64,000 bases of DNA. Origin: Methylomicrobium sp. wino1. Lineage in GTDB: Bacteria; Pseudomonadota; Gammaproteobacteria; Methylococcales; Methylomonadaceae. The position numbers and the translations under genes were made by a program. Location of the stretch: assembly GCF_003932755.1 (NCBI RefSeq), contig NZ_CP024202.1, forward strand, positions 2,046,001-2,110,000. The letters are read 5' to 3'. Below are positions 850 to 61,647 of this stretch, piece by piece (the first letter of the stretch is position 1; each line of letters starts with the position of its first letter). The notes under the pieces were generated by a model that did not search any database, had not been told where the DNA came from, and saw only the letters and a list, made by a program, of their open reading frames with translations.

Positions 850-1030
850 AGGATTTCGTGATAAATAATGTCCAGGAACTATGGGCGTTGTTGAGGGTTC
901 GGTAACTCGCTTGGCAGGACGCCGTAAATACGTCCGTGTAGGCTTGACGGCGGCTTTCCCTGCCGCCGACACCTGCCAATCGAGCAACCGAACCCTCCGT
1001 AAAATAGGGAAGTTATTTACGACCAAGTCC
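850..1030. repeat. MITE-like family A1 element between cobS and cobC
   Basis: An element of about 181 bp. Its ends resemble the A1 inverted termini (AGGATTTCGTGATAAATAA on one side, rc GGACTTGGTCGTAAATAAC on the other). Inside, an outer stem of about 24 bp (GGGTTCGGT...CTCG...TTGGCAGG paired with its complement) encloses two hairpins, GGACG/CGTCC and GACGGCGGC/GCCGCCGAC. It supplies the stop codon and last codons of cobS and ends one base before the cobC ATG. Confidence 0.85.
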
Positions 1031-1763
1031 ATATCGCGCTTAGGAAAAGATAAAAAACGACTTCGGCGACTTGCTGCCCGGCTCCCAAACAGTCGCCGGT
1101 ATAGCCGCCGATATGACGATGGAAATAGCGGCCGAGCCCCAGCGTGATCAGCATCATCGGTATCAGCGAAATCAAGGCCTGTGGCGGCAGCAAGGCAAAG
1201 GGCAACAACGCCGGAATGCCTACTAAGGCTAAGGTTTTCGCATCGGGCTTGAATACCGCGCCGGACGACTTGCTAGGCTGCGTGCGGGCGTAGTCGTAGC
1301 GGAACATCAAATACAACGGAAACCAGCGGCTGATACTGTGCCCCGCCAGCAAGGCAAACGGCGGAAGATGCGCAGGTAAACCGGCCAAAAGCTTGAATTT
1401 CAACAGCAGCAGCAACAGCAAACCGAGCGCGCCATAGGCACCGATCTGCGAGTCTTTCATGATGTCCAGAATGCGCTGTTTATCGTAGCCCCCGCCGAAA
1501 CCGTCGCAGACATCGGCAAAACCGTCTTCGTGAAAAGCCCCGGTAAGCAAGATGCCGGCGATTAAGGCGATAACGATCGCGATGTCTTGCGGCCAGATTT
1601 GCAAAGCGATCCAGAAAACCGATGCCGAAAATCCGCCGACCATCCAACCGATCAACGGTAGGTAAGCACAAGCAAAGGGCAAGCGTCGATAATCGAGCTT
1701 GGTAGGACAGGGCAGCCGGGTATAAAAGCCGACGGCCAGAAGGAAATCGTGTAATGAAGGCAT
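1017..1763 (-). CDS. cobS: Adenosylcobinamide-GDP ribazoletransferase (cobalamin synthase)
   Basis: Integral membrane enzyme joining adenosylcobinamide-GDP to alpha-ribazole (phosphate), the last assembly step of cobalamin. At 248 residues it is of normal family length. Family signatures are visible: FYTRLPCP near the N-terminus, the acidic motif GAFHEDGFADVCDGFGGG (about residues 76-93) that binds the metal-activated substrate, and GGYTGDCLGAGQQ near the C-terminus. Several hydrophobic helices surround these. The final residues (TWS) and the TAA stop come from the inverted end of the A1 element, so the native C-terminus was probably replaced by a few codons. Confidence 0.93.
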   Translation of the reverse strand: MPSLHDFLLAVGFYTRLPCPTKLDYRRLPFACAYLPLIGWMVGGFSASVFWIALQIWPQDIAIVIALIAGILLTGAFHEDGFADVCDGFGGGYDKQRILDIMKDSQIGAYGALGLLLLLLLKFKLLAGLPAHLPPFALLAGHSISRWFPLYLMFRYDYARTQPSKSSGAVFKPDAKTLALVGIPALLPFALLPPQALISLIPMMLITLGLGRYFHRHIGGYTGDCLGAGQQVAEVVFYLFLSAIWTWS

Positions 1764-1980
1764 GGAAAGTTTTGCTTGAATTAGGCGGGATATGTCCTTG
1801 GCATGTCTAATTCTACTTTGTCTTGCGACAATTTATAAAATCGATTGCTTAAGAATATGACAAACCGGGCGGCTGATTATGAACACAAGCAACACGATGT
1901 AAGCCTTGCGGCGTATGGCAAATGCCGGAAAAAGGGGGCGGTTGAATTATAAAATAACCCCGATACCCTTTATTTGCAGT

Positions 1981-2018
1981 TTTGTTTCGATCTGTCTAGT
2001 TTGGGGCTAGGGCAAAGC
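1981..2018. repeat. 38-bp tract shared with 5338-5375
   Basis: The sequence TTTGTTTCGATCTGTCTAG and the following GTTTGGGGCTAG recur at 5338-5375 with about three differences. Both copies lie directly next to an attC-like sequence in the accessory island, so this may be a cassette border. Confidence 0.6.
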
Positions 2019-2064
2019 TCAGAGGCGGAATGTTAGCGGAGTCCACTGGAATGCCAGGTTAGGC
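2005..2064 (-). other. Possible attC remnant at the 3' end of hicA
   Basis: Contains GTTAGGC (2058-2064), which matches the integron GTTRRRY core. On the minus strand the order is GCCTAAC, then a TGGCATTCCAG-type arm. The second arm and second core are not intact, so this is at best a truncated attC. The reading frame of hicA runs through it. Confidence 0.35.
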
Positions 2065-2249
2065 GTAGACGGCTTCATATCCCTAATTGCCCCTTGATAA
2101 GCCGACAAAGACTCTTTTATTTCGGAATGTCTTGGAACCGGAGTTTGTTTACCATTGGCAGGATTTGCATAAATATCGTGCTTATTGCCATGACGTTTAA
2201 GGTAACAGCCTGCTTCAACCAATTCTCTAATAAAGTTTCCTCGTTTCAC
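2019..2249 (-). CDS. hicA: HicA-type mRNA interferase toxin
   Basis: Toxin of a HicBA type II system; family members bind and cleave mRNA through a dsRBD-like fold with a catalytic His. The 76 residues match the family: MKRGNFIRELVEAGC, then GNKHDIYANPANGKQTPVPRH with the conserved His and the VPRH turn. The C-terminus (PNLAFQWTPLTFRL) is read from the attC-like sequence and is not typical of the family, so the original end may be lost. The start overlaps the hicB stop by 4 bp. Activity cannot be judged from sequence. Confidence 0.8.
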   Translation of the reverse strand: MKRGNFIRELVEAGCYLKRHGNKHDIYANPANGKQTPVPRHSEIKESLSAYQGAIRDMKPSTPNLAFQWTPLTFRL

Positions 2250-2455
2250 GCTACTTCGACGAAGACTTCTTTTATTTGTGATGCAGGGTGGTTGGTTTGC
2301 ACCTCCTCTGCCATTAAAAGTTTATAAGCATCTTCAATATTTTCTTCCAACTCCTCTAGTGTCTCACCCTGGCTAAAAACCCCAGGGATTTCCTTAAGTT
2401 TGCCAATATACCATCCATCATCTAACCAATACTCGAGAGTAAATGCACGTTTCAT
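2246..2455 (-). CDS. hicB: HicB-type antitoxin
   Basis: Antitoxin partner of HicA. The 69 residues form the partial-RNase-H-fold HicB domain: EYWLDDGWYIGKLKEIPGV followed by FSQGETLEELEENIEDA, the typical sequence of this family. There is no obvious C-terminal DNA-binding helix-turn-helix or ribbon-helix-helix, as in the short HicB class. Gene order is antitoxin first, then toxin, with an ATGA overlap. Confidence 0.82.
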   Translation of the reverse strand: MKRAFTLEYWLDDGWYIGKLKEIPGVFSQGETLEELEENIEDAYKLLMAEEVQTNHPASQIKEVFVEVA

Positions 2456-2490
2456 ATTTATATCCCACTAAAAATTGACCTAAATTCTGT

Positions 2491-2625
2491 TTATGATTTC
2501 GCAAATGATTGAGACCAACGTTTCTCAGATGCAAATTCTCCAAGCAGAATGGTTGCGAGGGTGTCCTGCTAGTCGGGTGGAAGCATTGTAGCTTCTGCAA
2601 CTGCATTATCGAGGGCCTGAGTCAT
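2491..2625 (-). pseudogene. Decayed addiction-module antitoxin-like gene
   Basis: The frame reads MTQALDNAVAEATMLPPD, an in-frame TAG (2569-2571), then QDTLATILLGEFASEKRW and a TAA (2491-2493). The pattern LPPDxQDTLATILLxE...E.RW is that of small addiction-module antitoxin-like proteins, in which the stop position is usually Glu. Two stops and loss of the C-terminal half mark it as a remnant. No matching toxin is seen next to it; hicB starts 36 bp further on. Confidence 0.6.
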
Positions 2626-2806
2626 ATTTCGTACTCCAAACCAGGATGATTTTTATTCTAAAGTAAGGTTATGTTAACGGGCAGCCGTAACTAGCACATT
2701 TGTAGAGACCTTAGCGAACGAAAAATGCGTCCGGGTTGACGGCCTTGGTATGTGCCGCTAGATACCTGTACAATTTCACGTACATGATAATTTTAGAGAG
2801 GCCCCG

Positions 2807-3060
2807 ATGGACGCCATAAGCTATACCACTGCACGAGCTAACCTAGCGAAAACTATGGAAAAGGTTTGTAATGACCTCGATCCCGTTATTATTACCCGAA
2901 AGAGAGAAGCGCCTGTAGTCATGATTTCTTTAGAAGACTTTCAGTCCATGGAAGAAACAGCTTACCCTGCTCCGATCCCCTGCAAATGCTCGCCACTCTA
3001 CTAGAGTCGATTGCAGAACTTGAGGCTGGGAACGGTACCGAGCACGAGTTGATAGAATGA
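2807..3060 (+). pseudogene. Frameshifted YefM/Phd-family antitoxin
   Basis: The start is intact (MDAISYTTARANLAKTMEK, then DPVIITRKREAPVVMISLED), which is the YefM DNA-binding domain. After EETAY the frame is broken: one extra base changes the expected LLRSPANARHLLESIAELE to PAPIPCKCSPLY and a stop at 3001-3003. A second shift is needed to recover LLESIAELEAGNGTEHELIE, which ends with a TGA overlapping the toxin ATG. The truncated 65-residue product would keep the DNA-binding part but lose the toxin-neutralising C-terminus. Confidence 0.85.
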
Positions 3061-3356
3061 ATCTGACTTTTTCCAGCGGAGCTTGGGAAAACTACTTGTA
3101 CCGGCAAAAAACCGATAAGGCCATGCTTAAACGAATAAATACTTTGATTAAGGCTATTCAGCGCAAACCTTTTGAAGGTATCGGTAAACCTGAGCCGTTG
3201 AAACACGGTTTGTCCGGCTATTGGTCTCGACGCATTAATGATGAACATCGGCTTGTCTATAAAGTTGTTGAAGACCATATCTTTATCGCTCAGCTCCGCT
3301 ATCAATACGAGTATTGCGCACATAACGCCAAGCGTAACCGCCCCACCAAAGCATAG
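3057..3356 (+). CDS. yoeB: YoeB-family toxin with altered C-terminus
   Basis: RelE-superfamily ribosome-dependent mRNA interferase. The body matches YoeB closely: FSSGAWENYLYRQKTDKAM, FEGIGKPEPLKHGLSGYW and SRRINDEHRLVYKV, so the catalytic Glu46 and Arg65 equivalents are present. E. coli YoeB ends in RYHY, with His83 and Tyr84 as functional residues. Here the end is RYQY followed by a 15-residue extension, so His is Gln and the native stop is lost. Together with the broken antitoxin this suggests a toxin that is weakened or dead. Confidence 0.85.
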   Translation: MNLTFSSGAWENYLYRQKTDKAMLKRINTLIKAIQRKPFEGIGKPEPLKHGLSGYWSRRINDEHRLVYKVVEDHIFIAQLRYQYEYCAHNAKRNRPTKA

Positions 3357-3450
3357 CGAAAGGCGCGCCGCTTATATTCTTAGACGTTTTTTCGATCAAA
3401 AGGGAGTAGTTAATTGTATCGGCTACTCGCTTAACGCGGGACAGTTTAAG

Positions 3451-3558
3451 GTTAATCCGTTCGTGGTGAGCCTGTCGAACCATGGGCGGATTAACCGTCC
3501 ACCCTTCGACAGGGCTCTCCTGAGCGCAGCCGAAGGGCTCAGGGCGAACGGTTAATCC
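3451..3558. repeat. REP-like palindrome
   Basis: Two inverted blocks, GTTCGTGGTGAGCCTGTCGA and the complement GAAGGGCTCAGGGCGAAC, flank an inner palindrome around GCGGATTAACCGTCCACC. This is a widespread type of intergenic hairpin element. It lies between the convergent yoeB and the 452-residue gene and may act as a bidirectional terminator. Confidence 0.7.
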
Positions 3559-5335: not shown

Positions 5336-5337
5336 TT

Positions 5338-6794: not shown

Positions 6795-6883
6795 CGAAAA
6801 GCCCTCAAAATATCTCAATAGGGTTTTAAACCGTGAAAGAGTAACACCGCGTCTCATCAAAAACAAACCTCGGCAATTTCAAC

Positions 6884-7108
6884 AGCAATTCCCAATTTGG
6901 AGATCAAAAAGGGTGTGGGGTGTGCTTGGCGAGGATGTCGGCAGCGGGACAGATTTTTGCTCCTCGGCAATTGCTCCTGCATTGCCCTAATACACGCCAT
7001 CCTTGGCGCTTAGTTGCCGCCAAGCCCCCATGGATGGGTTTACGGCGTTCCTCGACAGGCATACCCCACACCCTAAAATCGGCGAAACTGCTCAAACTGG
7101 GAATTGCT
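6884..7108. mobile_element. MITE-like family C element with 11-bp target duplication
   Basis: 225 bp with inverted ends AGCAATTCCCAATTTG and rc AGCAATTCCCAGTTTG. It is flanked by the perfect direct repeat GCAATTTCAAC at 6873-6883 and 7109-7119. The interior has a long outer stem (GGGTGTGGGGTGTGC paired with its partner) and the conserved core ACGCCGTAAACCCATCC (minus strand). The right duplication contains the cobT stop codon. There is no coding capacity. Confidence 0.88.
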
Positions 7109-7114
7109 GCAATT

Positions 7115-16159: not shown

Positions 16160-16586
16160 AATGGCTTTCCGTTGAGCTAGTGTGTATCATGACGGATAGT
16201 ATATAAGAAAATACTAATATTAAATAGGTTTTAGAATCGAGTCGATAATACCGCATCGTAAACGTATTTATTTACATCCCCTATCGTTCCCACGCTCCAG
16301 CGTGGGAATGCAGCCCGAGACGCTCTAGCGTCTCGTACCGCTGGAGCGGTACTCAGGCGTTCCCACGCAGAGCGTGGGAACGATAACTACTCCCTTTATA
16401 CTCAAGAATTATACTCATCGTAGATGAAAATTCGGCCTCGGCGTGCCCGTAAAGGACGCCGTAAACCCAGCACCTAAATTCCATAGTTCATTAGCTATGG
16501 TTAACTATCTGGGATAATTTAGGTGCTGAGTGAACGGCGGTCCTCAATAGACACATCCCATACCTTTTTATTCTTAGACGGTTTTT
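16160..16586. repeat. Intergenic repeats: type D palindrome and family B element
   Basis: A type D block at 16283-16383 (GTTCCCACGCTCCAGCGTGG, inner GAGACGCTCTAGCGTCTC, closing CCCACGCAGAGCGTGGG). A 65-bp family B palindrome follows at about 16470-16534, flanked by GGACGCCGTAAA and TGAACGGCGGTCC, a remnant of the A/C core. No gene recognised. Confidence 0.8.
16470..16534. repeat. 65-bp palindromic family B element
   Basis: Ends CCCAGCACCTAAATT and rc CTCAGCACCTAAATT with an inner CCATAG/CTATGG hairpin. It is a close inverted-orientation match to 33442-33506. It separates GGACGCCGTAAA from TGAACGGCGGTCC, suggesting insertion into a family A/C core. Confidence 0.8.
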
Positions 16587-19500
16587 TCACTCAAAAGGGG
16601 GTAGGATATTATTAATATCAATAACTATTTTTTCCGGAGAGTCGCTAAAATCATCGCGTAATTCGTAAAACGCCTTTTCGAGTAGAAATAGGTCGATCAG
16701 ACCGCGCGGAACTGTATTTTTTGCGAACAAGTCGCTACCGCTTACCGCTTCATCATAGGCAGCGAGGAAAGTGCGTTTAACCTCTGCTTTCCAGTCCCGC
16801 ATCATGGGTTCTAGTTTGGCGATATCATTGGGCCGTTCAATGCTGGCGAGCGTCATGGCTTTATGGGCCGCACGGTTCAAGGATCTTAGCACATCCGCCA
16901 CATCTCTTAACGGCGAATGTTTTCGATGTCGGCCGCCGCGTAATTGCGCCGGATCGCTCTCGAAGTCGGTAAATAAGAAATCGTTTTCGGTCAGCAGCAC
17001 ATGCCCCAGATGAAGATTTCCATGATAGCGGATTTTAACTCCTTTTACCGGTCCGGAAATACTAGCTTTCATTCGCTCAATCAGCGCCCCGCGTTGTTCG
17101 AGTAAAGGGCGTAGCGCTGTTTGAACCGATTCATCGAGCTCGTTCAGGCGATGTTCGAGTAAATCCAGCGTTGATGCCGCTTCGGTTTGCGCTTGACGCA
17201 CCCAGTCCGATAGGTCTTCGTCGCTGATTGGTTCGGGATCGAAAGCGGGAGTATCTGTTACCGTGCCCAATGCATGATGCAGTTCGCCTGTGCGTCGACC
17301 GAGCGTTTGAATGAGCATGAGATAGGCGCTATGCTTCTCTGCGGCAAGACAAGGCACAGGTTCCGTCGTGAGACATTCTTCCAGGAATCTTTCCAAATAA
17401 TCGAGTGTGTAGCTCCAACCGTCGCCCTGGTTTTTGACATAGCCTTGCAACACGGCAAGGGTCATAGCATCACCATTCTCGGCCTGATACTCTATGAAAC
17501 CGGCGATGGGCGGCGTATTACGGAATTTTACCGTATTGCTTAAAAAGCATCCTATTTCAATTTCCGGATGGCGTCCGATTTGAAGACGTCGATACCCTTT
17601 CAAAAATAACCGATTGTTCAGGGCGACGGTCGTTTTATTATCTTTCGTATGAGGCGGTTGTGCGGCTAGTTTGCCCGTCTCTTTTCCTGCGCATTCGTCA
17701 AATGCGTCGGTCGGTGAACAGTAAATGACTCCTTGTTCGCAGGTGATTGTTCGGTCGGCGCCAATGGCCTGGACAAGTGCTTGGCAAAATGCCTCGTCGG
17801 CAAATGCATCGCCTAAAATGCCTACTTGAGATTGCTGGCGTACTTTAGCCACGGTGAAAGGCGTTAAGTCATGCAGCCGTTTCAGGTCGTGATTTTCCCA
17901 TGCCAGCGCGAGCGGTAAAAAACAATGAAAAGGCTCTCCGGACTTGTGTTCGACACGGGCCAGGGTGAGTAACCACGTATTGTCTTCCGGTCCCCATTCG
18001 GAATAATCGCTAATATGCACACGGTCGAGCGATTCGCTGCTGATTTCACCATGCCAGTTTTGCGCGGCGACAAAGCCCGGTAACGCGTTTTCTTCGAGTT
18101 GAGTGCGCGCTTTTTTCGACATGGCAATACGCCAGGATTCGTCTTGGTTTCGAAAAAAACTGTGCCAGCCATCGAATAGCACTAGCGTCGGTAACTCCTC
18201 GGGTAATAAGTGTTCCTCGTGCCAAGCCGGCACGTCTTCGCTACGGGCCAGCCTGAACCAATAGTAATTATAGCCGGGCAGGGTAAGTAGGTAAGGTAAT
18301 TCGCCGATAGGCGGAAAAGCCGTGTGTCCGAGCATTTCCACCGGCACGCATCCTTTATAGGACGAAAGATCCAATTCGACCGCCTGCGCGGCTCGCGACA
18401 AGTTGCTGACGCATAGGATAATGTCGTCTTCGTATAACCTCAGATAGGCGAGAATCTTGCGATTGCCGGGGTGTAAAAAAACCAGTTCGCCGCGCCCGAA
18501 TGCCTGGTGATTTTTTCGCAATGTCAAAACATGCTTCATCCAATTGAGCAACGAAGAGCGGTCGCGCAACTGCGCCTCGACATTGACCGCCCCATAGCCA
18601 TAGATCGGGTCCATGATCGGAGGCAGATACAGTCGCTGCGGGTCGGCGCGGGAGAAACCGCCGTTACGATCGGGGCTCCATTGCATGGGGGTCCTGACGC
18701 CATTGCGGTCGCCTAGAAAAATATTGTCGCCCATGCCGATTTCGTCGCCGTAATAAATGATGGGCGAGCCCGGCATGGATAGCAGTAAGCTGTTCATCAG
18801 CTTGATTTTATCCAGCTCGTTATCCATCAGCGGGGCCAGCCGACGCCGAATTCCGACATTCAGGCGCGCGCGAGGGTCGCTGACATAGATTTGATACATA
18901 TAATCGCGCTCTTTGTCGGTGACCATCTCCAGGGTCAATTCGTCATGATTGCGCAGGAATATGGCCCATTGACAGTTTTCGGGAATAGTTGGAGTCTGCC
19001 GCATGATATCGACAACAGGATGACGGTCTTCTTGCGCGATAGCCATGTAAATTCGAGGCATGAGCGGGAAATGATAGGCCATGTGGCACTCGTCGCCATC
19101 ACTGAAATAATCCCGGACATTTTCCGGCCATTGATTGACTTCGGCGAGAAACACGCAATGCGGATAGTGTTCATCGACAATCGCACGCATTTGTTTGATC
19201 ACGTCATGCGTTTCCGGTAAATTTTCGTTGTTGGTTCCCTCTCGAACGCATAGATAGGGAATGGCGTCTAGGCGCATGCCGTCAACGCCTTGATCCAACC
19301 AGAAACGCATCAATTTGATCACCGCTTTGACGACCTGGGGGTTGTTGAAATTGAGATCCGGTTGGTGAGAAAAAAAGCGATGCCAGTAATAGGCATGAGC
19401 CTCATCGTCCCAAGTCCAATTCGATTTTTCGGTATCCTCGAAAATAATTCGCGTTTCGGGGAATTTTTGGTTGGTTTCGCTCCAGATATAAAAGTCGCGC

Positions 19501-24621: not shown

Positions 24622-24831
24622 TAACGATCATTGAAGGTCTAGCCCTCGGCCCGGCAAATGAAAGTGAGAGGCGTGGCGGAGGGTGCGGTTACTCGCTCGA
24701 CAGGACGCCATGAATACGTCCCTGCCGCCGACCGCCTGCCGGTCGAGCAACCGCACTCGCTTCGCAGCCAGTAGCGTTTTGCATATCGAAAAATTAGGTA
24801 AGGAATGCAATACTGCGAACTTTCACAGTAA
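24622..24831. repeat. Family A2 element with a deletion in the core
   Basis: Left end TAACGATCATTGAAGG, right end CGAACTTTCACAGTAA. The core ACAGGACGCCATGAATACGT is followed directly by CTGCCGCCGAC, so the middle part (second hairpin 5' arm) is missing. About 50 bp of unrelated sequence is inserted before the right end. It lies downstream of bpt. Confidence 0.75.
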
Positions 24832-33109: not shown

Positions 33110-33372
33110 AAGTTTTTACGTGTTATTACCTGATAGACTTCTTGCGTTCGCATGTATAGTATTTGTTTAGCCCTCCCTGTATTTCTCTGGTTCCCGCGGC
33201 TCTGCGTGGGAACCCATACCTTGGTTGTCGAGGTAAGGTCGGTATGCATTCCCACACAGAGCGCTCATCGTTATATATAAACCATACGTTACGCATCACA
33301 TACCATTTTCATACAGCTTATGGCTGCAACAAAACCTTGATAAAGGTAAGTGTTGCATACTTTGCAATGCAT
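33110..33372. repeat. Intergenic type D palindrome
   Basis: At 33188-33272: CTGGTTCCCGCGGCTCTGCG ... GCATTCCCACACAGAGCGC, followed by TCATCGTTATATATAAACC, the tail found with other type D copies. No gene. Confidence 0.7.
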
Positions 33373-33614
33373 AGGATTTCGCGAAAAATAACTTCCTGGA
33401 GTTATGGGCTTTGTCTAGGATTCGGTAACTCGCCTGGCAGGCCCAGCACCTAAATTATCCAAGATAGTTAACCATAGCCAACGAGCTATGGAATTTAGGT
33501 GCTGGGTGAATACGTCCTTGTAGGCTTGACGGCGGCGTTCTCTGCCGCCGATACCTGCCAATCGAGCAACCGAACCCTCCAAAAATAGGGAAGTTATTTA
33601 TGACCAAATCCTTA
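33373..33614. repeat. Family A1 element carrying a nested family B element
   Basis: Ends AGGATTTCGCGAAAAATAAC and rc TAAGGATTTGGTCATAAATA. The outer stem GATTCGGTAACTCGCC pairs with GGCAATCGAGCAACCG-type sequence. The core is interrupted between GGCAGG and TGAATACGTCC by the 65-bp element B; six core bases (ACGCCG) are missing at the junction. Confidence 0.85.
33442..33506. repeat. 65-bp family B palindrome nested in A1
   Basis: CCCAGCACCTAAATTATCC ... GGAATTTAGGTGCTGGG, with inner CATAGC/GCTATG arms. Nearly the same as the reverse complement of 16470-16534. Its position dates it as younger than the surrounding A1 copy. Confidence 0.88.
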
Positions 33615-34996: not shown

Positions 34997-35182
34997 GTTA
35001 CTGTGAAAGTTGGCGGACCGAAGAGGGTACGGTTGCTCGAACCGACCGGCGTCGGCGGCAGGGAGCCGCCGTCGAGACTACATGGACGTATTTACGGCGT
35101 CCTGTCGGGCGAGTGATCGTACCCTAGCCAACCCCTCACAGTTTCATTTGTCGGGGTGATGACAGCTTCTTCATGATCGTTA
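34997..35182. repeat. Family A2 element (minus orientation)
   Basis: GTTACTGTGAAAGTTGGCGG at one end and CATCATGAAG-type TTCTTCATGATCGTTA at the other. The core, read on the minus strand, is ACGCCGTAAATACGTCC then ATGTAGTCTCGACGGCGGC. Nearly identical to 50840-51023. Confidence 0.85.
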
Positions 35183-40395: not shown

Positions 40396-40699
40396 GCGTC
40401 GTTGTTTTCTTGCGCGGTCGGCGGTTAATCGTGAGTGGGGCGGTGCTGCTTTAATGCTATCGACGTAAACCAATTATCCCAGAAAAAGACTCTCACCATC
40501 AAGATCATGAAGATTGACAGAGTACAATTTTCTTTGAATTTTTAAGTGTTTCCGGCAGTGCTGGATGATTTCAACACTTACCGCATACAGAGCCTTTCTT
40601 TTTGGAAAACCAGTATGGGAAGTTTACGGGACATTTCTACACAGACCTTTTAGTCGGCTTTTTCGATATAAAGTTAATTGGCCTGTAACATGTATCAAC
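40396..40699. other. Intergenic upstream of the methyltransferase
   Basis: AT-rich, no gene or repeat recognised up to the family C element at 40700. It should hold the methyltransferase promoter. Confidence 0.5.
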
Positions 40700-40864
40700 A
40701 GCTATTCCAAGTTTGAGCATTTTCGCCGAACTTAGGGTGCGGAGTATGCCTATCGAGGAACGCTGTGAACCCATCCATGGGGGCTTGACGGCAGCTCCCT
40801 GCGCCGACATCCTCGCCAAGGACCCTTCACACCCTCTTTAATCCCCAAGTTGGGAATTACAGCT
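40700..40864. repeat. Family C element, degraded, inverted orientation
   Basis: AGCTATTCCAAGTTTGAGCA at one end and CCCCAAGTTGGGAATTACAG at the other resemble the C termini. The core ACGCTGTGAACCCATCC and ATGGGGGCTTGACGGCAGC reads on the plus strand, opposite to the copies at 6884 and 61436. Target duplication is not clear (GTATCA on both sides). Confidence 0.75.
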
Positions 40865-41163
40865 GTATCAGATGAATGGTTGCAGGTAGCTGATTGACGT
40901 CTATAGAAATTTGGATTTTTCGGGAAGGCGATAACTGACAGGGTTGTCCATTCTGTTCTTCGATGGGCATGCGCACATCAAGCAAGTTATCCCGGCTTGA
41001 GACCTTGCTGTTTGGTCAATGAGGTTGCGCTGCTTTGCTTTAGCACTGAAATAACGCTGGTAGTTATGCATGTGGCATATACCTCAATCTGTATAGAATC
41101 GTTAGAAGCACAATAGCTATGGCTTTAATGTCGACTATCAGCTACTGAGGTGAGGTTTGCATT
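40865..41163. other. Intergenic without recognised feature
   Basis: No convincing gene, only short open frames. It leads into the decayed Phd gene at 41164. Confidence 0.4.
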
Positions 41164-41276
41164 ATGAAAACAGCAACCATTGCAGATGCAAAAAGTCATT
41201 TATCACACCTCATCCATCAACTTGAGAATGACGAACCTTATACATCCGACCCGTTATGATGTCCGAAGCGCAAAAT
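41164..41276 (+). pseudogene. Decayed Phd/YefM-family antitoxin
   Basis: Reads MKTATIADAKSHLSHLIHQL, ENDEP, then shifts to YTSDPL and a stop at 41257. Removing one T restores EPIHPTRY, matching the usual EPIxLTRYG of these antitoxins. The remainder is missing; a family A element starts at 41294. GAGGTGAGG upstream looks like a former ribosome-binding site. No toxin gene follows. Confidence 0.7.
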
Positions 41277-41293
41277 AATAAGCTGATTACGCC

Positions 41294-41490
41294 TAACGTT
41301 CATGAAGGCCCCGGCCATCGCCCCGACAAATGAAAGTGCGGGATGGAGGGAGGGTGCGGTCACTCGCCCGGCAGGACGCCGTGAATACGTCCGTGTAGGC
41401 TCGACGGCGGCTTTCTCTGCCGCCGACACCTTCCAATCGAGCAACCGAACTTTCCGTAAAATAAGGAAGTTATTTACGACCAAATCCTTA
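41294..41490. repeat. Mosaic family A element (A2 left end, A1 right end)
   Basis: Left part TAACGTTCATGAAGGCCC and CCCCGACAAATGAAAGTGCG as in A2; right part GGAAGTTATTTACGACC and AAATCCTTA as in A1. Core ACGCCGTGAATACGTCC, GTGTAGGCTCGACGGCGGC intact. Confidence 0.8.
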
Positions 41491-41631
41491 CCTTCTGGGT
41501 ACGAATATACTTTCGGAGTCGGCCAGGCTCAAACCCAAATGTTTAGCGCTCGATTCCGGTTGTAGCCTCGTACACCGTGGTCGTTTAAATTTACTTTGAC
41601 CGACATAAAGTTGACTGAATACGAGATTACT

Positions 41632-42885
41632 TTAATTCCTCAAATGGCCATTGCCATAGGCCACCCACTTGTAGGTTGTCAATTCATCCGGTCCGACCGG
41701 GCCGCGGGCGTGGAGTTTGTCGGTGCTGATGCCGATTACCGATCCCAAACCGTAATCGCCGCCTCCTGATAATCTTGTAGAAGCATTGATCAATACCGAG
41801 GCCGAATCAACCTGATGCTCGAATTGTTGAGCCATGTTCAGGCTTTGCGTGACAATGGCATCGGTATGTCCCGACCCATAGCGATTGATATGATCGATCG
41901 CCTCATCGATACCGTTGACGATTTTTATTGACAGTATCGGCGCCAGATATTCGCTATGCCAATCTTCTTCTGTTGCCGGGGCGATGCCCGGCAAGAGCTT
42001 TTGTGTCTTTTCGCAGCCGCGCAGTTCGATATTGTTTGCGTCAAATGCCGTTTGGAGTAAGGGTAGCATTTCTTTGGCGCACTGTTTATCGACTAATAGC
42101 GTTTCGAGCGCGTTACAGACCTGAACGCTTTGGCATTTCGAGTTGATCGCGAGATTGATCGCTTGAGCAGGGGGCGCGTCTGCTGCGATATAGAGATGAC
42201 AGATGCCGTCGTAATGTTTGATGACAGGAATTCGTGTACCTTCGGCAATACGTTTGATCAAGTCCTTGCCGCCGCGCGGAATCAAAACGTCCACATAGTC
42301 ATCCATCTTAAGCAGTTCGCCAACGGCTTCATGGCCCGGCGTGCGGATAATCTGTATAGCATGTTCCGGAAGTCCTGCGTCTACAGCGCCTTCAATCATC
42401 GCATCGGTCAAGAGCATGTTGGTTTGCAGCGCTTCCGATCCGCCTCGCAAGATGACGGCATTACCGCTTTTGATACAAACCCCGGCGGCATCAGTGGTGA
42501 CATTAGGCCGTGATTCGTAAATGATACCGATGACGCCAAGCGGCACCGATTTTTTAAAAACCTGAAGCCCGGCGGGATTGGTATGGCCTTCGAGTACGCG
42601 ATTCAACGGGTCCGGCCGCCGAGCGACTTCATTTAGCCTTGATATCATGTATTGAAAAACCTTGTCGTCGATCGTCAAACGTTTGACCAGTGCATTCGAT
42701 TGTCCAGCCTGCCGAGCTTTTTCGACTTCTTCGGCATTGACGTCCAGAACCCGGTTTTTGATTGATTGAAGCGAGTCGACCATTTTTGAAAGCGCAAGAT
42801 TACGCAATGACTCGGATGTCGATGATAATTGACGTGCCGCAAGACGGCTCTGTTTGGCAATGACTTGAACGGAACGGCTACTCAC
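41632..42885 (-). CDS. proA: Glutamate-5-semialdehyde dehydrogenase
   Basis: NADPH-dependent reduction of gamma-glutamyl phosphate in proline synthesis. 417 residues with PLGVIGIIYESRPNVTTDAA, KSGNAVILRGGSEA, the catalytic Cys in SVQVCNALETLLVD and GLGSVIGISTDKLHARGPVG near the end. Starts MSSRSVQVIAKQSR. Monocistronic; proB is not adjacent. Confidence 0.95.
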   Translation of the reverse strand: MSSRSVQVIAKQSRLAARQLSSTSESLRNLALSKMVDSLQSIKNRVLDVNAEEVEKARQAGQSNALVKRLTIDDKVFQYMISRLNEVARRPDPLNRVLEGHTNPAGLQVFKKSVPLGVIGIIYESRPNVTTDAAGVCIKSGNAVILRGGSEALQTNMLLTDAMIEGAVDAGLPEHAIQIIRTPGHEAVGELLKMDDYVDVLIPRGGKDLIKRIAEGTRIPVIKHYDGICHLYIAADAPPAQAINLAINSKCQSVQVCNALETLLVDKQCAKEMLPLLQTAFDANNIELRGCEKTQKLLPGIAPATEEDWHSEYLAPILSIKIVNGIDEAIDHINRYGSGHTDAIVTQSLNMAQQFEHQVDSASVLINASTRLSGGGDYGLGSVIGISTDKLHARGPVGPDELTTYKWVAYGNGHLRN

Positions 42886-43222
42886 AATGGATCCATAGTT
42901 ATTTTGAAAGCCTGAAGGTTAGCAGTAAATTAAGAGTGGCACAAAATTCGAGCAGTTGATTAGGTTGATTAAGGCTTAGGAATATGCACAAAATAACTTA
43001 TACAAGTAGTAGGCTTTGGGGCGGTTCGGTGACTCTCTTGACAGGACGCCGTGAATACGTCCATGTAGGCTTGACGGCGACTATCCCTGCCGCCGACACC
43101 TGTCAATCGAGCCACCGAACCCCCTTCTAACAGCTGTCGAAGTTATTTCATGCTCGTTCCTTAGCGTCCTATCGCGATCATAATCAGAACGGTCGGGAGC
43201 TTGGGGAGCGCGCGAAGTATGA
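42886..43222. repeat. Intergenic with family A3 element (42976-43163)
   Basis: Ends TTAGGAATATGCACAAAATA and rc TAAGGAACGAGCATGAAATA, an A-type terminus of different sequence. Outer stem GGTTCGGTGACTCTC...; core ACGCCGTGAATACGTCC and ATGTAGGCTTGACGGCG. No gene. Confidence 0.8.
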
Positions 43223-43726
43223 CTAATAAAGTTGTGCTCCTTGAGCAAGGCAAGTCAGATAAAGCCGCATATCAAATTCCAGCTGGTGGTAGTTGGGCTC
43301 CATGTGTTCGCACAATTTATAGAATGCCTTGTTGTGCTGTTTTTCCCGCAAATGAGCCAGTTCATGTACGACGATCATCTTTAAGAATTCAAGTGGTGTT
43401 TTTTTAAAAACGGAACCTATGCGGATTTCATTTTTTGCTTTTAATTGATTACCTTGCACTCGGGCTACCCCTGAATGTAAGCCAAGCGCTTGATGAACGA
43501 CATCAATTTTATCGTCGTAAACGATCTTGCTTATCGGACCGGATTGCCGAAGAAATTGATTTTTTAGCTCAATCGCATAGGCATAGAGTGCTCTATCGGT
43601 TCGGATCTGATGGGGAGTCGGGTATTTATTCAGTAGTAGCTCGGCTAATTTATCGTCATTGATCAGTCGTTGGATTTGATCGGTAACGGTTACGGGGTAG
43701 CCGGTCAGATAGTTTATCGGGCGCAT
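43223..43726 (-). CDS. YgjP-like M48-type metallopeptidase
   Basis: 167 residues with zinc motif VVHELAHLREKQHNKAF (HELAH at 121-125, third ligand His131) and KLCEHMEPNYHQLEFDMRLYL, the usual end of the YgjP/DUF45 family. No signal peptide, so cytoplasmic. Partners unknown. Followed in the same direction upstream by a DUF5710 gene. Confidence 0.85.
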   Translation of the reverse strand: MRPINYLTGYPVTVTDQIQRLINDDKLAELLLNKYPTPHQIRTDRALYAYAIELKNQFLRQSGPISKIVYDDKIDVVHQALGLHSGVARVQGNQLKAKNEIRIGSVFKKTPLEFLKMIVVHELAHLREKQHNKAFYKLCEHMEPNYHQLEFDMRLYLTCLAQGAQLY

Positions 43727-43763
43727 CTCATGCTGCTGTATTATAAAGGCTTAAAAACTAAGG

Positions 43764-44075
43764 TTATTCCCATGGCGGCTCATCACCACTGTAGGCTACA
43801 AAGTCTTTATCCGTTGCATAGGTAATGACGCCCGAGCCGGCGTTACCGGCGTTATTGGTTGAAGGACTTTTTTTGATGGATGAGGCTGATTTAAAGCCGG
43901 AAGCTGCGAACGACTTTGGCCCGGCGTCTTGTGTTTGCCATTGTGCAAAAAGTGATATGTCCTTATTGCTTGGAACATACCATTTCTTTTGGGCGGGATC
44001 CCATCTTGCTCCTAGCGCTTTAGCCGCATCTTTTTGCGCATACGGCACATTCAGATAAGTTTTTGATTCAGCCAT
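43764..44075 (-). CDS. DUF5710-domain protein
   Basis: 103 residues. The first 45 match the DUF5710 motif: TYLNVPYAQKDAAKALGARW and DPAQKKWYVPSN. The rest is low-complexity Ser/Ala/Asn, ending GDEPPWE, a tail seen in single-stranded-nucleic-acid-related proteins. In larger proteins this domain is found with topoisomerase, primase or DNA-repair modules. Function here unknown. Confidence 0.78.
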   Translation of the reverse strand: MAESKTYLNVPYAQKDAAKALGARWDPAQKKWYVPSNKDISLFAQWQTQDAGPKSFAASGFKSASSIKKSPSTNNAGNAGSGVITYATDKDFVAYSGDEPPWE

Positions 44076-44107
44076 TTCTTCTAGTGGTAAGTGCCCAATG
44101 CACTACT

Positions 44108-44299
44108 TTATGCGAAGCTAGCAGATTTGCTGTTGATTAAATTAAAAAAACGATTGCGTAGGTTAACATACGATTTTTGTAAAGGCGACCAAATGCCCGG
44201 TAAAACACGAAGACAAAATGCAGCGATGTTCTCCCCCTCGGCCTCTTTAACCACAAAAATAAAATAAATAACGGTTAACACATAAATAAATTCTGACAT
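44108..44299 (-). CDS. Possible small membrane protein
   Basis: 63 residues: an N-terminal hydrophobic helix (FIYVLTVIYFIFVV), then a basic tail. AGGAC precedes the ATG by about 8 bp. In line with the DUF5710 gene. No family recognised. Confidence 0.45.
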   Translation of the reverse strand: MSEFIYVLTVIYFIFVVKEAEGENIAAFCLRVLPGIWSPLQKSYVNLRNRFFNLINSKSASFA

Positions 44300-44368
44300 A
44301 TTTGCGTCCTGATAGTATTGATTGTTCTTGTAATTTTCTGTCTGAAAATGATCATTCGGTATGCTCTA

Positions 44369-44565
44369 TTAGGATTCGGTCATAAATAACTTCCCTATTG
44401 TTAATGCAAGGTAAGCAGGTTCGGTTGCTCGATTGGCAGGTGTCGGCGGCAGGAAAAGCCGCCGTCAAGCCTACAAGGACGTATTCAGGGCGTCCTGTCG
44501 AGCGAGTTACCGAACCCGATACAAAACTCATAGTACAAGGAAGTTATTTTTCACGAAATCCTTAT
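44369..44565. repeat. Family A1 element (minus orientation)
   Basis: Ends TTAGGATTCGGTCATAAATA and rc TAAGGATTTCGTGAAAAATA. Outer stem GGTTCGGTTGCTCGATTGG with CGAGCGAGTTACCGAACC. Core on the minus strand ACGCCCTGAATACGTCC, TTGTAGGCTTGACGGCGGC. Confidence 0.85.
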
Positions 44566-45041
44566 ATTGGTTGTTGGCGAGTGAATATAACAGAAGTTGC
44601 CCAAAATAAGTAAGCGAATGTAATTTGGACGTCGCGAAAATTAGTAAGGAGGGTGAAATATCACTAGACAGTTGCTTTATATTGGATGTCTTTTACTGGT
44701 TACGTTTCATAGTTCTCAAATATCTGCTTAAAAATCATATAACCTTTATTCCGGTTTCTGTCGGTTGGATCCGAATGGGTTCTTCGAGTCGTTCAAGAGA
44801 TCGCAGTTCGTGACGGGCTTAAATCAAGGCACAATGAGTTTGAGAAATGTATGAGTGTTAATGCTGGTTCAAACCGCATTTCAACAAGCTTAGAGCGAAC
44901 AGCAGATGTTTAAACGATTGAAACTTTATGCTCTAGTGCAGAGGTTATGTTTAATTGAGCATTGCCGGCTTGGCGTTTTTCACATAATCTAACTGTGCAC
45001 TCTGCAATTTTCAACGATAATCGATATCATCAGCCACTATC
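44566..45041. other. Intergenic upstream of the HDOD-GGDEF gene
   Basis: No gene or repeat recognised; the short open frames lack ribosome-binding sites. Promoter expected near the 3' end. Confidence 0.4.
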
Positions 45042-50839: not shown

Positions 50840-51023
50840 TAACGATCATGAAGAAGCTGTCATCACCCCGGCAAATGAAAGTGCGAGGGGTGGCTAGGGT
50901 ACGATCACTCGCCCGACAGGACGCCGTAAATACGTCCATGTAGTCTCGACGGCGGCTCTCTGCCGCCGACGCCGGTCGGTCTAGCAACCGCACCCTCTTC
51001 GGTTCGCCAACTTTCACCGTAAC
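50840..51023. repeat. Family A2 element
   Basis: TAACGATCATGAAGAAGCTG at one end, GCCAACTTTCACCGTAAC at the other. Core ACGCCGTAAATACGTCC, ATGTAGTCTCGACGGCGGC. Nearly identical, in the reverse direction, to 34997-35182. Confidence 0.87.
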
Positions 51024-58304: not shown

Positions 58305-58706
58305 TTAATCGGACAACGGAAAGACTTCGATCGTCTCGGCGGGTTGGGGCGCCGGGTAAGACGGATAAGCGCTTTCTTGAGGCCGACCGGTTTGGTAAAG
58401 CCTTTCGCCTTCTTCGAGTAGTTTTTTGCCTTGTTCGATCATGTTTTGGCCATCTTTGACTTGAAGCTCGCCTTGCGCGACCAGTTTCTTGCCTTCGTTA
58501 ATCGTATCGCGGCCTTCGGCAATTCTTTTATTGCCGTCCTTGACCAGGCGGTTGCCTTCATTCCATTTAATGCCGGCTTCGATGAATGGACCGCCTTGTT
58601 TAATCATCAGATCGCCTTTGCTCGGTGCGGGAGTGTTGCAACCGGTCATTTGGGTAGCGAATACCGAAAATACCGGCAATAGGATCGATAATTTGGTTTT
58701 TGACAT
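58305..58706 (-). CDS. Lipoprotein with glycine heptad repeats
   Basis: 133 residues; signal ends in the lipobox TGC (Cys23). Residues 51-107 carry eight consecutive heptads each starting with Gly (G51, 58, 65, 72, 79, 86, 93, 100, 107) with Ile/Leu/Val at position 4-5: GNRLVKDGNKRIAEGR, GKKLVAQGELQVKDGQ, GKKLLEEGERLYQTG. It is probably a helical rod with Gly along one face. A Pro-rich tail follows. No family or function known to me; between tamA and the znuD-like gene. Confidence 0.75.
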   Translation of the reverse strand: MSKTKLSILLPVFSVFATQMTGCNTPAPSKGDLMIKQGGPFIEAGIKWNEGNRLVKDGNKRIAEGRDTINEGKKLVAQGELQVKDGQNMIEQGKKLLEEGERLYQTGRPQESAYPSYPAPQPAETIEVFPLSD

Positions 58707-58862
58707 GACTGGGCCTTTTGATTGGAAAAAACGAACCGGCATTATAACGTAATTAAGGAATTAGCGGGTTTAAGGAGGGTGATTGATTCGAAGGTGGGGG
58801 GATGATTCGAAAGCGTTTTTGGATTTGAGCCCGGATGGCGAAATAAAAATCTACTTGATGAT

Positions 58863-58881
58863 TGTTACAATATAACGTATC
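58863..58881. promoter_or_regulatory. Zur-like operator upstream of the znuD-like gene
   Basis: TGTTACAATATAACGTATC. This matches 18 of 19 bases of the reverse complement of 62898-62916 and has the GTTAnnnTATAAC form of gammaproteobacterial Zur boxes. It is 85 bp upstream of the ATG. Confidence 0.75.
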
Positions 58882-58965
58882 TTAATGTTTTTTTATTAAT
58901 CTGTTTGCTGCTTTGCAGAGAAAATTTCGAAACAATCGTGATAAATTGCCGGTCAGTCTGAGCTC

Positions 58966-61053
58966 ATGCACAAATCATCTATATTATTGTTGGTTCCTTT
59001 CGCTTCGGTGGGTCATGCCGCCGATGAAAACAAAGCTTCGAAATCCATTATGTTGGATAAAATCGTCGTCAGCTCACCATTGCCGCAATCGGCTTCCGAT
59101 ACCGCTTTGCCCGTGACTATTCTGAGCGGCGAAGAATTACGTCTGAAGGCGGGCAGCACGATCGGCGATACCTTGAAGAACGAGCCGGGCATTCATAGTC
59201 AATCCTTCGGTCCCGGTGTCGGACAACCGGTCATTCGCGGTCAATCCGGATCTCGGGCGCAAGTCCTGCAAAACGGCTTGGGCAGTCTCGATGCGGCCTC
59301 GATCAGTCCGGATCACGCGAACAGCACCGAGGGCTTTTGGGCCGAACGGATCGAGGTATTGAAAGGCCCCGCCACGCTACTTTACGGCGGCGGCGCGATT
59401 GGCGGCGTGGTCAATGTCATCGATAACCGTATACCCGATCGTGTGCCGGACAAATTGATCGAAGGCGCGGCCGAGCAGCGTTATAACTTCGTCAACGAAG
59501 GCAAGACCACGGCTTTCAAACTGGAAGGCGGCAAGGATTTCTTCGCATGGCATCTGGACGGCATGTTCCGCGAAAGCATCGATATGCAGATTCCCGGTTT
59601 GGCGGTCGACGAAGCTGCGGAAGCGCAAAGCCATGACGATGAAGAAGATACTTTCAATAGTCGGGGGCGTTTGTTGAATTCGAACACGCGAGCGCGCACA
59701 GGAACCGTAGGCTTTTCCTTTGTCGGCGATCCCGGGTTTATCGGATTTTCGATCAACCATCTCGACAACAATTACGGGGTGCCGCTCGGTGCGCATGCGC
59801 ATCATGAGGATGAGGGAGACGAAGATGCCATGCCTGAAAGCGTGCGTATCGATCTCAAGCAAACCCGCTACGATATGAAAGGCGAGATCAAGGACCCTGT
59901 GTGGTTTGCTGACAGTTTGCGGATTCGGCTGGGTTATAACGATTACCAGCATACCGAATTGGAAAACGGCGAAAAAGGTACGGTCTATACCAATACCGGA
60001 TTCGATAGCCGACTCGAATTGATTCAAAAACCTTGGTTGCTGTTCGATCACGGAGTGGTCGGCGTGCAAACCAAAAACAGCGAATTCGAAGCAAAGGGCG
60101 ATGAAGCGGTCGTGCCGCGCTCAAAGATCGACTCGTTCGGTTTTTTTACGATACAGGACATTCATGCAGGACCAATGACTTATGAATTCGGCGCACGCGT
60201 CGAGCAGCAATTCATCGATCCGGAAGGCCAAAAGCAAAGCTCGCATACGCCAGTCAGCGGTTCGGCATCGGCGCTCTGGCATTTTACCGATCAAGACTCG
60301 GTTCGATTGTCGTTTACCCATGCGCAGCGCGCGCCGGACGTACAGGAATTGTTTTCCAACGGTCCGCATTTAGCGACCAACAGTTTCGATATCGGGAATG
60401 CGGGACTTACGGTCGAGGCTGCGAATAATCTGGAATTGGGGCTGCATTTCGAGCGCGACTGGGTTCATGCCGACTTCAATTTGTATCATAACTGGGTCAA
60501 CAATTACATCGCGCAAATCAGGACCGGCGAGGTTTTCGACGAAGATCATGCCGAGATCGAGGATGAATGCGATCATGATCACGAGTGTTTGCCGGTTTTT
60601 CGGGCGCAACAGCGCGATGCGATCTTGAAAGGTTTCGAAGCGCAAGTGACCTTTCCGTTGCTGGAAACGCGTTACGGACATTTGGACAGTCAGTTTTTCG
60701 GCGATTACGTGCGCGGACAATTCACCGACGGCAGCGATATTCCCCGCATGCCGCCTTTACGTTACGGCATGCAACTTTCGTGGGAGCATACGGCTTGGGC
60801 CGCGAATGTGCGCATTACGCGCGCCGAAAGACAGGAAAACCCGGGCGACAACGAAACCGAAACCCCCAGTTATTGGCTTTTGAATAGTACCGCGAATTAC
60901 CGAGTGGATGCCGGAGACGAAACCGATGTATTGCTGTTTGTTAAAACCAGTAACCTACTGAATCAGGATATCCGTAATTCGGTGTCTTATCTGCGCAATA
61001 TCGCACCCGAAGCCGGGCGTGCCGTGGAGTTGGGTATTCGCGTCGTATTTTAG
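58966..61053 (+). CDS. TonB-dependent receptor, ZnuD-like zinc uptake
   Basis: 695 residues; signal peptide (MHKSSILLLVPFASVGHA), plug domain about 45-160 (TIGDTLKNEPGIHSQSFGPG, PVIRGQSGSRAQVLQNGLG, IEVLKGPATLLYGGGAIGGV), then the 22-strand barrel ending RAVELGIRVVF. His/Asp/Glu-rich loops near residues 276-290 (AHHEDEGDEDA) and 524-545 (DEDHAEIEDECDHDHEC) fit the zinc-binding loops of ZnuD. The Zur-like operator supports zinc as substrate. Other metals cannot be excluded. Confidence 0.88.
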   Translation: MHKSSILLLVPFASVGHAADENKASKSIMLDKIVVSSPLPQSASDTALPVTILSGEELRLKAGSTIGDTLKNEPGIHSQSFGPGVGQPVIRGQSGSRAQVLQNGLGSLDAASISPDHANSTEGFWAERIEVLKGPATLLYGGGAIGGVVNVIDNRIPDRVPDKLIEGAAEQRYNFVNEGKTTAFKLEGGKDFFAWHLDGMFRESIDMQIPGLAVDEAAEAQSHDDEEDTFNSRGRLLNSNTRARTGTVGFSFVGDPGFIGFSINHLDNNYGVPLGAHAHHEDEGDEDAMPESVRIDLKQTRYDMKGEIKDPVWFADSLRIRLGYNDYQHTELENGEKGTVYTNTGFDSRLELIQKPWLLFDHGVVGVQTKNSEFEAKGDEAVVPRSKIDSFGFFTIQDIHAGPMTYEFGARVEQQFIDPEGQKQSSHTPVSGSASALWHFTDQDSVRLSFTHAQRAPDVQELFSNGPHLATNSFDIGNAGLTVEAANNLELGLHFERDWVHADFNLYHNWVNNYIAQIRTGEVFDEDHAEIEDECDHDHECLPVFRAQQRDAILKGFEAQVTFPLLETRYGHLDSQFFGDYVRGQFTDGSDIPRMPPLRYGMQLSWEHTAWAANVRITRAERQENPGDNETETPSYWLLNSTANYRVDAGDETDVLLFVKTSNLLNQDIRNSVSYLRNIAPEAGRAVELGIRVVF

Positions 61054-61435
61054 ACGGTATGCCGAATACGCTTCGGATCTGGGTTCTAAACAAACTGCGC
61101 ACTTCTTCCTCGTTCCCACCGCTCCAGCGTGGGAATGTTACCGATTCTGTTTCGGTAGCGAAAGTATGGATCCCCACGGAGGATCGCTCGTCGTTATACA
61201 TAAATATCGGTACACTTGCTAAACAGAGGTCATCGTATACCTGGGAACGGTGTTGTTTGATAAATCTGCGGATATTGAACATTAGTGGCTTCGAAATCGC
61301 GATCTGGGGATCGCTCCCACAGAGCATCAGGCCCTCTCTTGTGGGAGCGACGCCTACGTCGCGACTATCGAAGCCGCTATCGCTCAAACACCAATAGCCT
61401 TTTCGGACGACACGGCAATCTAGCGCTCGGTCGCC
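61054..61435. repeat. Intergenic types D and E
   Basis: Type D at 61111-61195 (CGTTCCCACCGCTCCAGCGT ... CCCCACGGAGGATCG, then TCGTCGTTATACATAAATAT) and type E at 61288-61373 (TCGAAATCGCGATCTGGGGA ... GTGGGAGCGACGCCTACG). No gene. Confidence 0.7.
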
Positions 61436-61647
61436 AGCAATTCCCAATTTGGGGATCAAACAGGGTGTGGGATATGCTTGGCGAGGATGTCGGCAGCAGG
61501 GGCAGATTTTTGCTCCTGCAAAATCTGCATTCACGCCATCTTTGGCGCTTAGCTGCCGTCAAGCCCCCATGGATGGGTTCACGGCGTTCCTCGACAGGGA
61601 TACCCCACACCCTAAATCCAGTGAGAATGCTCAAACTGGGAATTGCT
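61436..61647. mobile_element. Family C element with 10-11 bp target duplication
   Basis: Inverted ends AGCAATTCCCAATTTGG and rc AGCAATTCCCAGTTTGAG. Flanks GCTCGGTCGCC (61425-61435) and GCTCGGTCGCT (61648-61658), 10 of 11 identical. Core on the minus strand ACGCCGTGAACCCATCC, ATGGGGGCTTGACGGCAGC. Same orientation as the 6884 copy. Confidence 0.85.

Follow-up and report, generated by a model that had tools for sequence, protein, structure and literature searches.

Short palindromic repeats of the kind represented by the Yersinia palindromic element YPAL/RU-2 (167-168 bp) have been in print since 2006-2007, and the literature consulted gives no agreed function for them. YPAL/RU-2 is mobile, intergenic and present in many copies, and a review reports duplications of 3-26 bp at dyad targets. 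REP (GTAG/CGTC) repeats are likewise abundant intergenic palindromes, each of which, according to PMC3733652, forms one small hairpin whose foot reads GTAG or CGTC. RNAs of the CsrB/RsmZ class, together with leader sites, present ANGGA hairpin loops closed by C-G, and the excerpted sources give the CsrA/RsmA motif as RUACARGGAUGU, with ANGGAN in loops (PMC3791407, PMC7937890). RNAs of ISPpu8-adjacent intergenic regions, one of them a "long palindromic region", were pulled down by the Pseudomonas putida Rsm proteins RsmA, RsmE and RsmI, according to PMC7937890.

In the genome that includes the window (the whole stretch of 64,000 nucleotides analysed), placed by kinship in the genus Methylotuvimicrobium, a common core is carried by elements of six end types (A1, A2, A3, B, C and E). 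On its GGA strand the core folds as a three-way junction consisting of an outer stem (P1) and two hairpins (P2 and P3). The features are given below with recurrent inserts (D and F) and matches to a covariance model built on 37 sequences, 31 of them from other genomes.

849..1031, plus strand: A1-type element; model match 909-981 on the minus (GGA) strand, both loops ANGGA
3385..3408, minus strand: isolated E-type left end, no core, adjoining an ORF without Pfam match
6883..7109, minus strand: C-type element with insert F in the second hairpin; 9-bp duplication TTGAAATTG; partial model match 6964-7048
16410..16603, no strand assigned: chimera of B left end, insert D and inverted E left end; junction inside the core
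24622..24831, plus strand: A2-type element; internal deletion, most of P2/P3 gone
33371..33614, plus strand: A1-type element; core interrupted by palindromic insert D, 33442-33506
34998..35182, minus strand: A2-type element; model match 35040-35110, both loops ANGGA
40696..40865, plus strand: C-type element, CCC/GGG variant of the P2 tip; model match 40750-40819, both loops ANGGA
41294..41490, plus strand: chimera, left end A2, right end A1; model match 41366-41438, P3 loop decayed
42976..43163, plus strand: A3-type element; model match 43036-43108, both loops ANGGA
44369..44565, minus strand: A1-type element; model match 44431-44503, P3 loop decayed
50840..51023, plus strand: A2-type element; model match 50911-50981, P3 loop decayed
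61435..61648, minus strand: C-type element with insert F in the second hairpin; partial model match 61542-61587

Ten window copies are recovered by the model, which misses the internally deleted element at 24622-24831 and the chimera at 16410-16603. The shared core described in the initial annotation is real: 12 window sites match the core pattern at up to three mismatches, against a mean of 4.0 in shuffles (none of 100 reaching 12), and the exact pattern occurs 118 times in the 5.06 Mb genome (reversed control 0). The core is present in 53 of 276 sampled Gammaproteobacteria genomes, and a sister genome holds 505 exact copies. Pattern matches in Salibacterium and one Lysobacterales MAG lacked the P2 partner strand and were taken as chance. 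At E values up to 1, nothing in plasmids, phages or E. coli genomes matched a 33-nt GGA-strand consensus of P2. Separately, a single viral contig matches a related pattern.

Among the systems above, YPAL/RU-2 contains the same GGA-strand core from position 64 of the printed Y. pestis sequence (Table 1b, PMC2759123), with loops AAGGAT and ATGGAT. Its arms and ends, however, differ from those of all six end types, and duplications here are TA or 9-10 bp. The word CsrA does not occur in the YPAL papers PMC2229807 and PMC2759123. The Rfam family Ysr224 (RF02770), the Rfam counterpart of YPAL, whose best match (126.5 bits) is in Yersinia similis, gave 57 weak matches in this genome, the best of 34.8 bits (26 bits within 40600-44650) lying below the 70-bit gathering cut-off, and 2 of 14 control genomes also matched weakly. 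The Rfam model is built on the UCC strand and pairs it differently, whereas the fold here is on the GGA strand. C and E types carry GGGGG at the place of the REP GTAG foot. While CsrB/RsmZ sponges possess many GGA hairpins in a single transcript driven by its own promoter, each core here holds two GGA hairpins, predicted to be sites and transposon-borne in many copies, and no promoter-like site was found inside the four elements of 40600-44650 (6 found across that interval, 6.6 expected). By their published description, the ISPpu8-adjacent RNAs resemble these elements in coming from intergenic regions linked to a mobile element, one of them palindromic.

The elements are mobile, recombining modules, as demonstrated by empty sites (in a sister species, for A3, B and C elements), nested insertions, and chimeras that unite different ends at a junction inside one core. 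They resemble MITEs in being short and numerous, with matched ends, target duplications and empty sites. Ends were matched in 147 of 194 copies, and per-type counts omit the other 47, which are chimeras or have one or both ends unrecognised; chimeras were counted only where read by eye, some automatic calls being nested or adjacent elements. C-type elements are flanked by 9-10 bp target duplications in 21 of 29 cases, whereas all 10 E-type elements have TA at either side and B is also TA-flanked, such that at least two kinds of target duplication are in use, suggesting different transposases. The same inserts D and F recur in several end types; most insert-D copies are absent from the end-type, duplication, chimera and orientation counts because they fail the search pattern. 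Coreless copies of A1 and B ends also exist; a search for ends without core yielded short coreless elements at three own-genome loci, and no transposase or autonomous parent among the loci of this kind in the genome. The initial annotation had distinguished at least four kinds of ends. Differing ends stand, but they number six, B and E having gone unlisted, and the outer stems of A1 and A3, which it had separated, are nearly identical. Its view that the core is kept while ends change holds, and the distinct duplications and the end-swapping chimeras show that point mutation alone did not produce the different ends.

The core fold was derived from 141 copies, reduced to 51 by removing those with fewer than 8 of 10 P1 pairs and near duplicates, and to 41 by dropping ten by eye for irregular P1 or P3; 37 of these were aligned (L058, L139, L148 and L155 were left out). 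P1 and the P3 stem are free in sequence, P2 comprises a GGC foot, a UUYAC bulge and a 3-bp tip, and conservation is higher in the loops than in the stems. In a plain MAFFT alignment of the 37 sequences, covariation was 0.534 compared with 0.152 in shuffles. A second set of 47 copies not used for the model, from 46 of 63 loci searched (L157-L219, mainly outside Methylotuvimicrobium), gave a covariation score of 0.736 against 0.171 shuffled, with 95.6% against 65.8% of cells paired and both-sided changes at 20 of 23 pairs, some of these copies coming from genomes that also fed the model. Covariation thus bears out the outer stem and two inner hairpins first read from the window, and is strong where its absence had been named as the contrary outcome. 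Selection on the core, as initially suggested, is supported both by these base pairs and by ends that were exchanged rather than point-diverged.

The conserved fold belongs to the GGA strand, opposite to the strand initially written out. In a test scored without credit for G-U, and with this genome represented by copies free of inserts D and F, mismatches that could form G-U on the GGA strand only numbered 191, versus 60 on the other strand only. Of 38 groups, 32 favoured the GGA strand, namely 25 of the 31 organism groups and all 7 end-type groups of this genome; one group opposed it and five tied. Owing to this asymmetry of wobble-compatible mismatches, a strand-neutral DNA hairpin, among the alternatives originally listed, is disfavoured. 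Stem substitutions relative to the family consensus showed no strand asymmetry (199 to 203, copies free of D and F).

The apical loops of P2 and P3 both read A-N-G-G-A(-N) and are closed by C-G, as in CsrA/Rsm-binding RNAs; in the consensus, 20 nt separate one GGA from the other. Among the 47 second-set copies, the P2 loop was ANGGAN in all 46 parsed, with all four bases at both N positions, and the P3 loop ANGGA in 37 of 42 parsed (28 of 32 parsed among the 37 of the first set). Across Methylotuvimicrobium copies free of D and F, P3 was ANGGA in 88 of 117, covering all six end types, and no ANGGA loop was parsed in the other 29. In the window, all 10 model matches keep an intact P2 loop and 4 of the 8 full-length ones an intact P3 loop; copies bearing insert F have lost the P3 loop. 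The host encodes an intact CsrA of 65 aa. Of the 26 family genomes holding the core, 23 gave a CsrA hit, and two near-complete drafts gave none, one of them judged by its absence from the list of hits. This co-occurrence carries no information, since almost every genome of the family has CsrA (172 of 201). The loops are matched in conservation by the UUYAC bulge and the GGC foot, neither of which CsrA explains.

Together, these findings suggest that the core is probably a transposon-borne structured RNA module presenting two predicted CsrA/Rsm sites. We propose that the earlier alternatives of a structured RNA and a host-protein site converge on an RNA with two candidate CsrA-type loops; its transcription and CsrA binding are predictions from sequence. 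The GGA strand would be transcribed, most likely by read-through, and a CsrA dimer would bind the P2 and P3 loops, so that an insertion might place the host transcript under CsrA control or enlarge the pool of CsrA-titrating RNA. Loop selection on actively transposing copies would preserve the core, while recombination within it could swap P1, ends and transposition mode. By analogy, the Rsm pull-down of IS-adjacent intergenic regions offers a suggestive precedent for binding of such elements. More tentatively, mobile elements widespread in Gammaproteobacteria may carry a predicted double CsrA/Rsm junction between transposon families, rewiring or titrating the Csr network. If so, up to hundreds of CsrA sites would be seeded per genome, and Csr/Rsm regulons would hold a mobile, lineage-specific layer, affecting how they are read and engineered, for example in the methanotroph M. 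buryatense 5G; transposons of different kinds would then also provide a clear example of a shared RNA cargo. Now that covariation, a defined strand and a conserved loop motif whose protein partner is known have been established, the function of such palindromic repeats becomes experimentally testable.

It is less likely that a structured RNA or single-stranded DNA serves the spread of the element itself, in packaging, priming, protection or recognition, with the GGA loops addressing a protein other than CsrA. Such a role would accommodate the conserved bulge and joint outside the loops, as well as a weak preference for one replication strand shown by the UCC strand (77 of 135, by hand count). 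Single-stranded DNA also tolerates G-T wobbles, and may be the selected form. Conversely, a single core persists despite duplications (TA, 9 bp) suggestive of different transposases, A1 and B ends occur without it, and the variable loop positions coincide with the N positions of the CsrA motif. We consider it improbable that the palindromes, like REP elements, work solely by the stability of their stems to terminate transcription or stabilise mRNA. The stems are long and stable, a review reports YPAL as tied to upstream transcripts, and in 23 of 29 C-type copies a run of at least five T follows the outer stem on the UCC strand, whereby C elements may terminate transcription reading that strand; yet none of the 118 matched copies of the remaining five end types shows the T-run, it lies opposite the selected GGA strand, and loops surpass stems in conservation. 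Least probable is a functionless recombination substrate kept uniform by gene conversion between abundant palindromes, which would fit chimera junctions in the core and inserts shared among end types, but is disfavoured by covariation between distant genomes, explaining neither conserved loops with compensatory stem changes across genomes of many families nor the strand asymmetry.

With regard to orientation, a replication-strand model was rejected, the copies being only weakly uneven relative to GC skew (77 to 58, by hand count). Near tandem genes, the GGA strand is under-represented as sense (43 versus 71, n=114, p=0.011, on crude gene calls and with neither genome significant alone), and in other species the corresponding count is 8 to 11.

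Within the window, 12 matches to the core pattern were identified at up to 3 mismatches, compared with a mean of 4.0 in shuffled sequences (0/100 shuffles reached 12), and 118 exact matches were found across the 5.06 Mb genome, with 0 for the reversed control. A first collection of core copies numbered 99, part of them read by eye; a later collection comprised 196 (135 from the genome under study and 61 from its sister genome, G010), with full flanks in 194. The initial annotation had proposed at least four kinds of ends around one core, a claim borne out by a count of six types, with matched ends in 147 of the 194 copies (B, 38; A2, 32; C, 29; A3, 25; A1, 13; E, 10). Given that the outer stems of A1 and A3 are nearly identical, these two types probably represent subfamilies of a single lineage.

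The elements bearing the core are mobile and recombining. Target duplications of 9-10 bp were found at 21 of 29 C copies, TA flanks on both sides in 10/10 E copies, and a right-hand TA in 33 of 38 B copies; for A1, A2 and A3, TA flanks are apparent by eye, although automatic boundaries do not prove them. Comparison between the two species identified uninterrupted DNA matching the joined flanks of an A3 copy at 3326307, and empty sites for a B copy (G010 2666119; single TA) and a C copy (G010 79606; single 9-mer, one mismatch). Nesting was also observed, comprising C inside A3, C inside B, and A1, B and E inside D, one of two inserts found in the core:
Window 33442-33506; also loci L050, L055, L066, L070, L072 and others: insert D, a palindrome at the P2 bulge, found in both orientations
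Window 6883-7109 and 61435-61648; loci L003, L019, L030, L047, L063 and others: insert F, in the P3 loop

Identical 4-bp duplications accompany 20 of 27 D copies (TGAA/TGAA, 17; TAAA/TAAA, 3), 26 of the 27 lying in fetched stretches of the genome under study and 1 in those of the sister genome. Because these duplications occur at the P2 bulge with D in both orientations, its insertion is repeated and site-specific. Insert F occurs in 30 of the 147 matched-end copies, across five of the six end types. Chimeras joined within the core were read directly for A2/A1 (window 41294-41490), E/A1 (1669811 and 663915) and A2/B (159526 and G010 293151), while joins across insert D link an A1-type left arm to a B-type right arm (L023) and B to an inverted E (window 16410-16603). 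Together, the duplications, empty sites, nesting, chimeras and inserts reject the alternative that the ends are merely point-mutated forms of one element. Insert F also has its own GGA hairpins, which read C-AAGGAT-G or C-ATGGAT-G, plus C-AGGA-G, when the opposite strand is taken; their stem changes look compensatory by eye.

The core fold and its loops are conserved on one strand, here termed the GGA strand, with the consensus P1 - cGUc - P3 (loop A(U/G)GGAU) - UCAAGCC - UAC ANGGAY GUA - UUYAC - GGC - GUC - P1'. In a plain MAFFT alignment of 37 sequences, 90.6% of cells were paired (69.2% shuffled), and covariation was 0.534, compared with 0.152 shuffled and at most 0.134 in slid versions. 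In the larger alignment of 47 copies not used for the covariance model (R1), where the initial annotation had looked to covarying pairs as a test of the structure, these were found: covariation was 0.736 (0.171 shuffled; slid versions at most 0.101), paired cells reached 95.6% (65.8% shuffled) and both sides changed in 20 of 23 pairs, in an alignment that was fitted to the model and so leans towards the structure, and that includes copies from genomes which also supplied the model. In both alignments, conservation of the UUYAC five-base bulge and the GGC foot of P2 is roughly equal to that of the GGA loops, and the bulge needs a separate explanation.

A stem with two hairpins had initially been described for either strand; the fold stands, but the conserved strand is opposite to the one first read (the UCC strand). 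With P1 arms aligned using Watson-Crick credit only and distinct mismatches counted per group, 191 mismatches are wobbles only for the GGA-strand fold and 60 only for the UCC-strand fold. The GGA-strand fold was favoured by 32 of 38 groups (25 of 31 organisms and 7 of 7 end-type groups of the genome under study), the UCC-strand fold by 1, with 5 ties, the groups being not fully independent as end types are common to the Methylococcales groups. Substitutions in single copies relative to the family consensus lacked asymmetry in stems (199 to 203) and showed no clear asymmetry in ends (105 to 84, p=0.15); thus no general mutation bias of the size of 191:60 is seen, and the recent decay of copies gives no sign of selection either. 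It is the family masters that carry the strand asymmetry.

Among the 47 copies, the P2 loop reads ANGGAN in 46/46 parsed, with all four bases at each of positions 2 and 6 across six tip-stem combinations. Since many copies were found through their P2 sequence, P3 offers the less biased evidence: its stem sequence is free to vary, yet its loop keeps ANGGA in 37 of 42 parsed. Of 117 Methylotuvimicrobium copies, 88 retain this P3 loop, and they span all six end types. In the window, the P3 loop is kept in 4/8 full-length matches and the P2 loop in 10/10 model matches. The host encodes an intact CsrA of 65 aa that has the RNA-binding residues Leu4 and Arg44, and the two GGA are 20 nt apart, a gap that presumably suits a single CsrA dimer. 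CsrA/RsmA are described as preferring 5'-RUACARGGAUGU in loops, with ANGGAN as recognition motif (PMC7937890, PMC3791407), and UACARGGAUGU is present in the P2 forms UACAGGGAUGUA and UACAAGGAUGUA. From these predicted sites, CsrA would bind GGA-strand transcripts of the core.

Such transcripts are likelier to arise by read-through than as an own transcript, as no promoter-like site was found within the four elements of window 40600-44650. Near tandem genes, the GGA strand is rarer as sense (43 vs 71, p=0.011, mainly A2 and A3), a count based on crude gene calls and significant in neither genome alone; other species show no sense-strand bias (8 vs 11). The lower GGA-sense count could mean that such insertions are costly, which is compatible with an active RNA. 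In 23 of 29 type C copies (e.g. window 40696-40865), at least 5 T follow the outer stem when the UCC strand is read; with this terminator-like T-run, the elements may also end transcription arriving from the UCC-strand side. Separately, within window 2919-3408 an isolated E end adjoins a region that, by eye, may encode a pair of small genes on the other strand; the minus-strand ORF had no Pfam match.

The exact core pattern occurs in 26 of 201 sampled family genomes (9 of 29 genera), and at least 113 stretches match it in named genomes, with Stenotrophomonas, Yersinia, Pantoea, Idiomarina, Ectothiorhodospira, Thioalkalivibrio, Sedimenticola, Microbulbifer and Alishewanella among the matches listed. 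Two loci, L127 and L132, match the pattern without the structure and were rejected as core copies. Across the class, R1 detects the core in 53 of 276 genomes, representing 47 of 215 genera; as its scan scores few candidates per genome, copy numbers should be read as minimum values. When R1 was applied to a sample of the phylum, 18 of 249 genomes matched, 18/18 in the same class as the query genome, the sampled genomes outside that class being incompletely listed. Two near-complete drafts, G098 and G176, carry core copies with no CsrA match (G176 by absence from the listing).

Among known families, Rfam Ysr224, counted among the most abundant sRNA families in PMC9029176, scores 126.5 bits on the Yersinia copy, 51.2 on a Pantoea copy and at most 26 on window stretch 40600-44650; its search of the genome gave no copy above cut-off, with weak matches also in 2 of 14 control genomes. 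At listing level, no publication tying CsrA to such repeats was found in the openly licensed literature apart from P. putida Rsm pull-downs, which recovered ISPpu8-adjacent regions and a long palindromic region whose meaning the authors leave open (PMC7937890). The YPAL/RU-2 sequence printed in PMC2759123 includes the core, and a review describes YPAL as a mobile element associated with upstream transcripts (PMC2229807). The core is also present on one IMG/VR contig, IMGVR_UViG_2724679354_000001 (L280:6227-6253), possibly a provirus flank.
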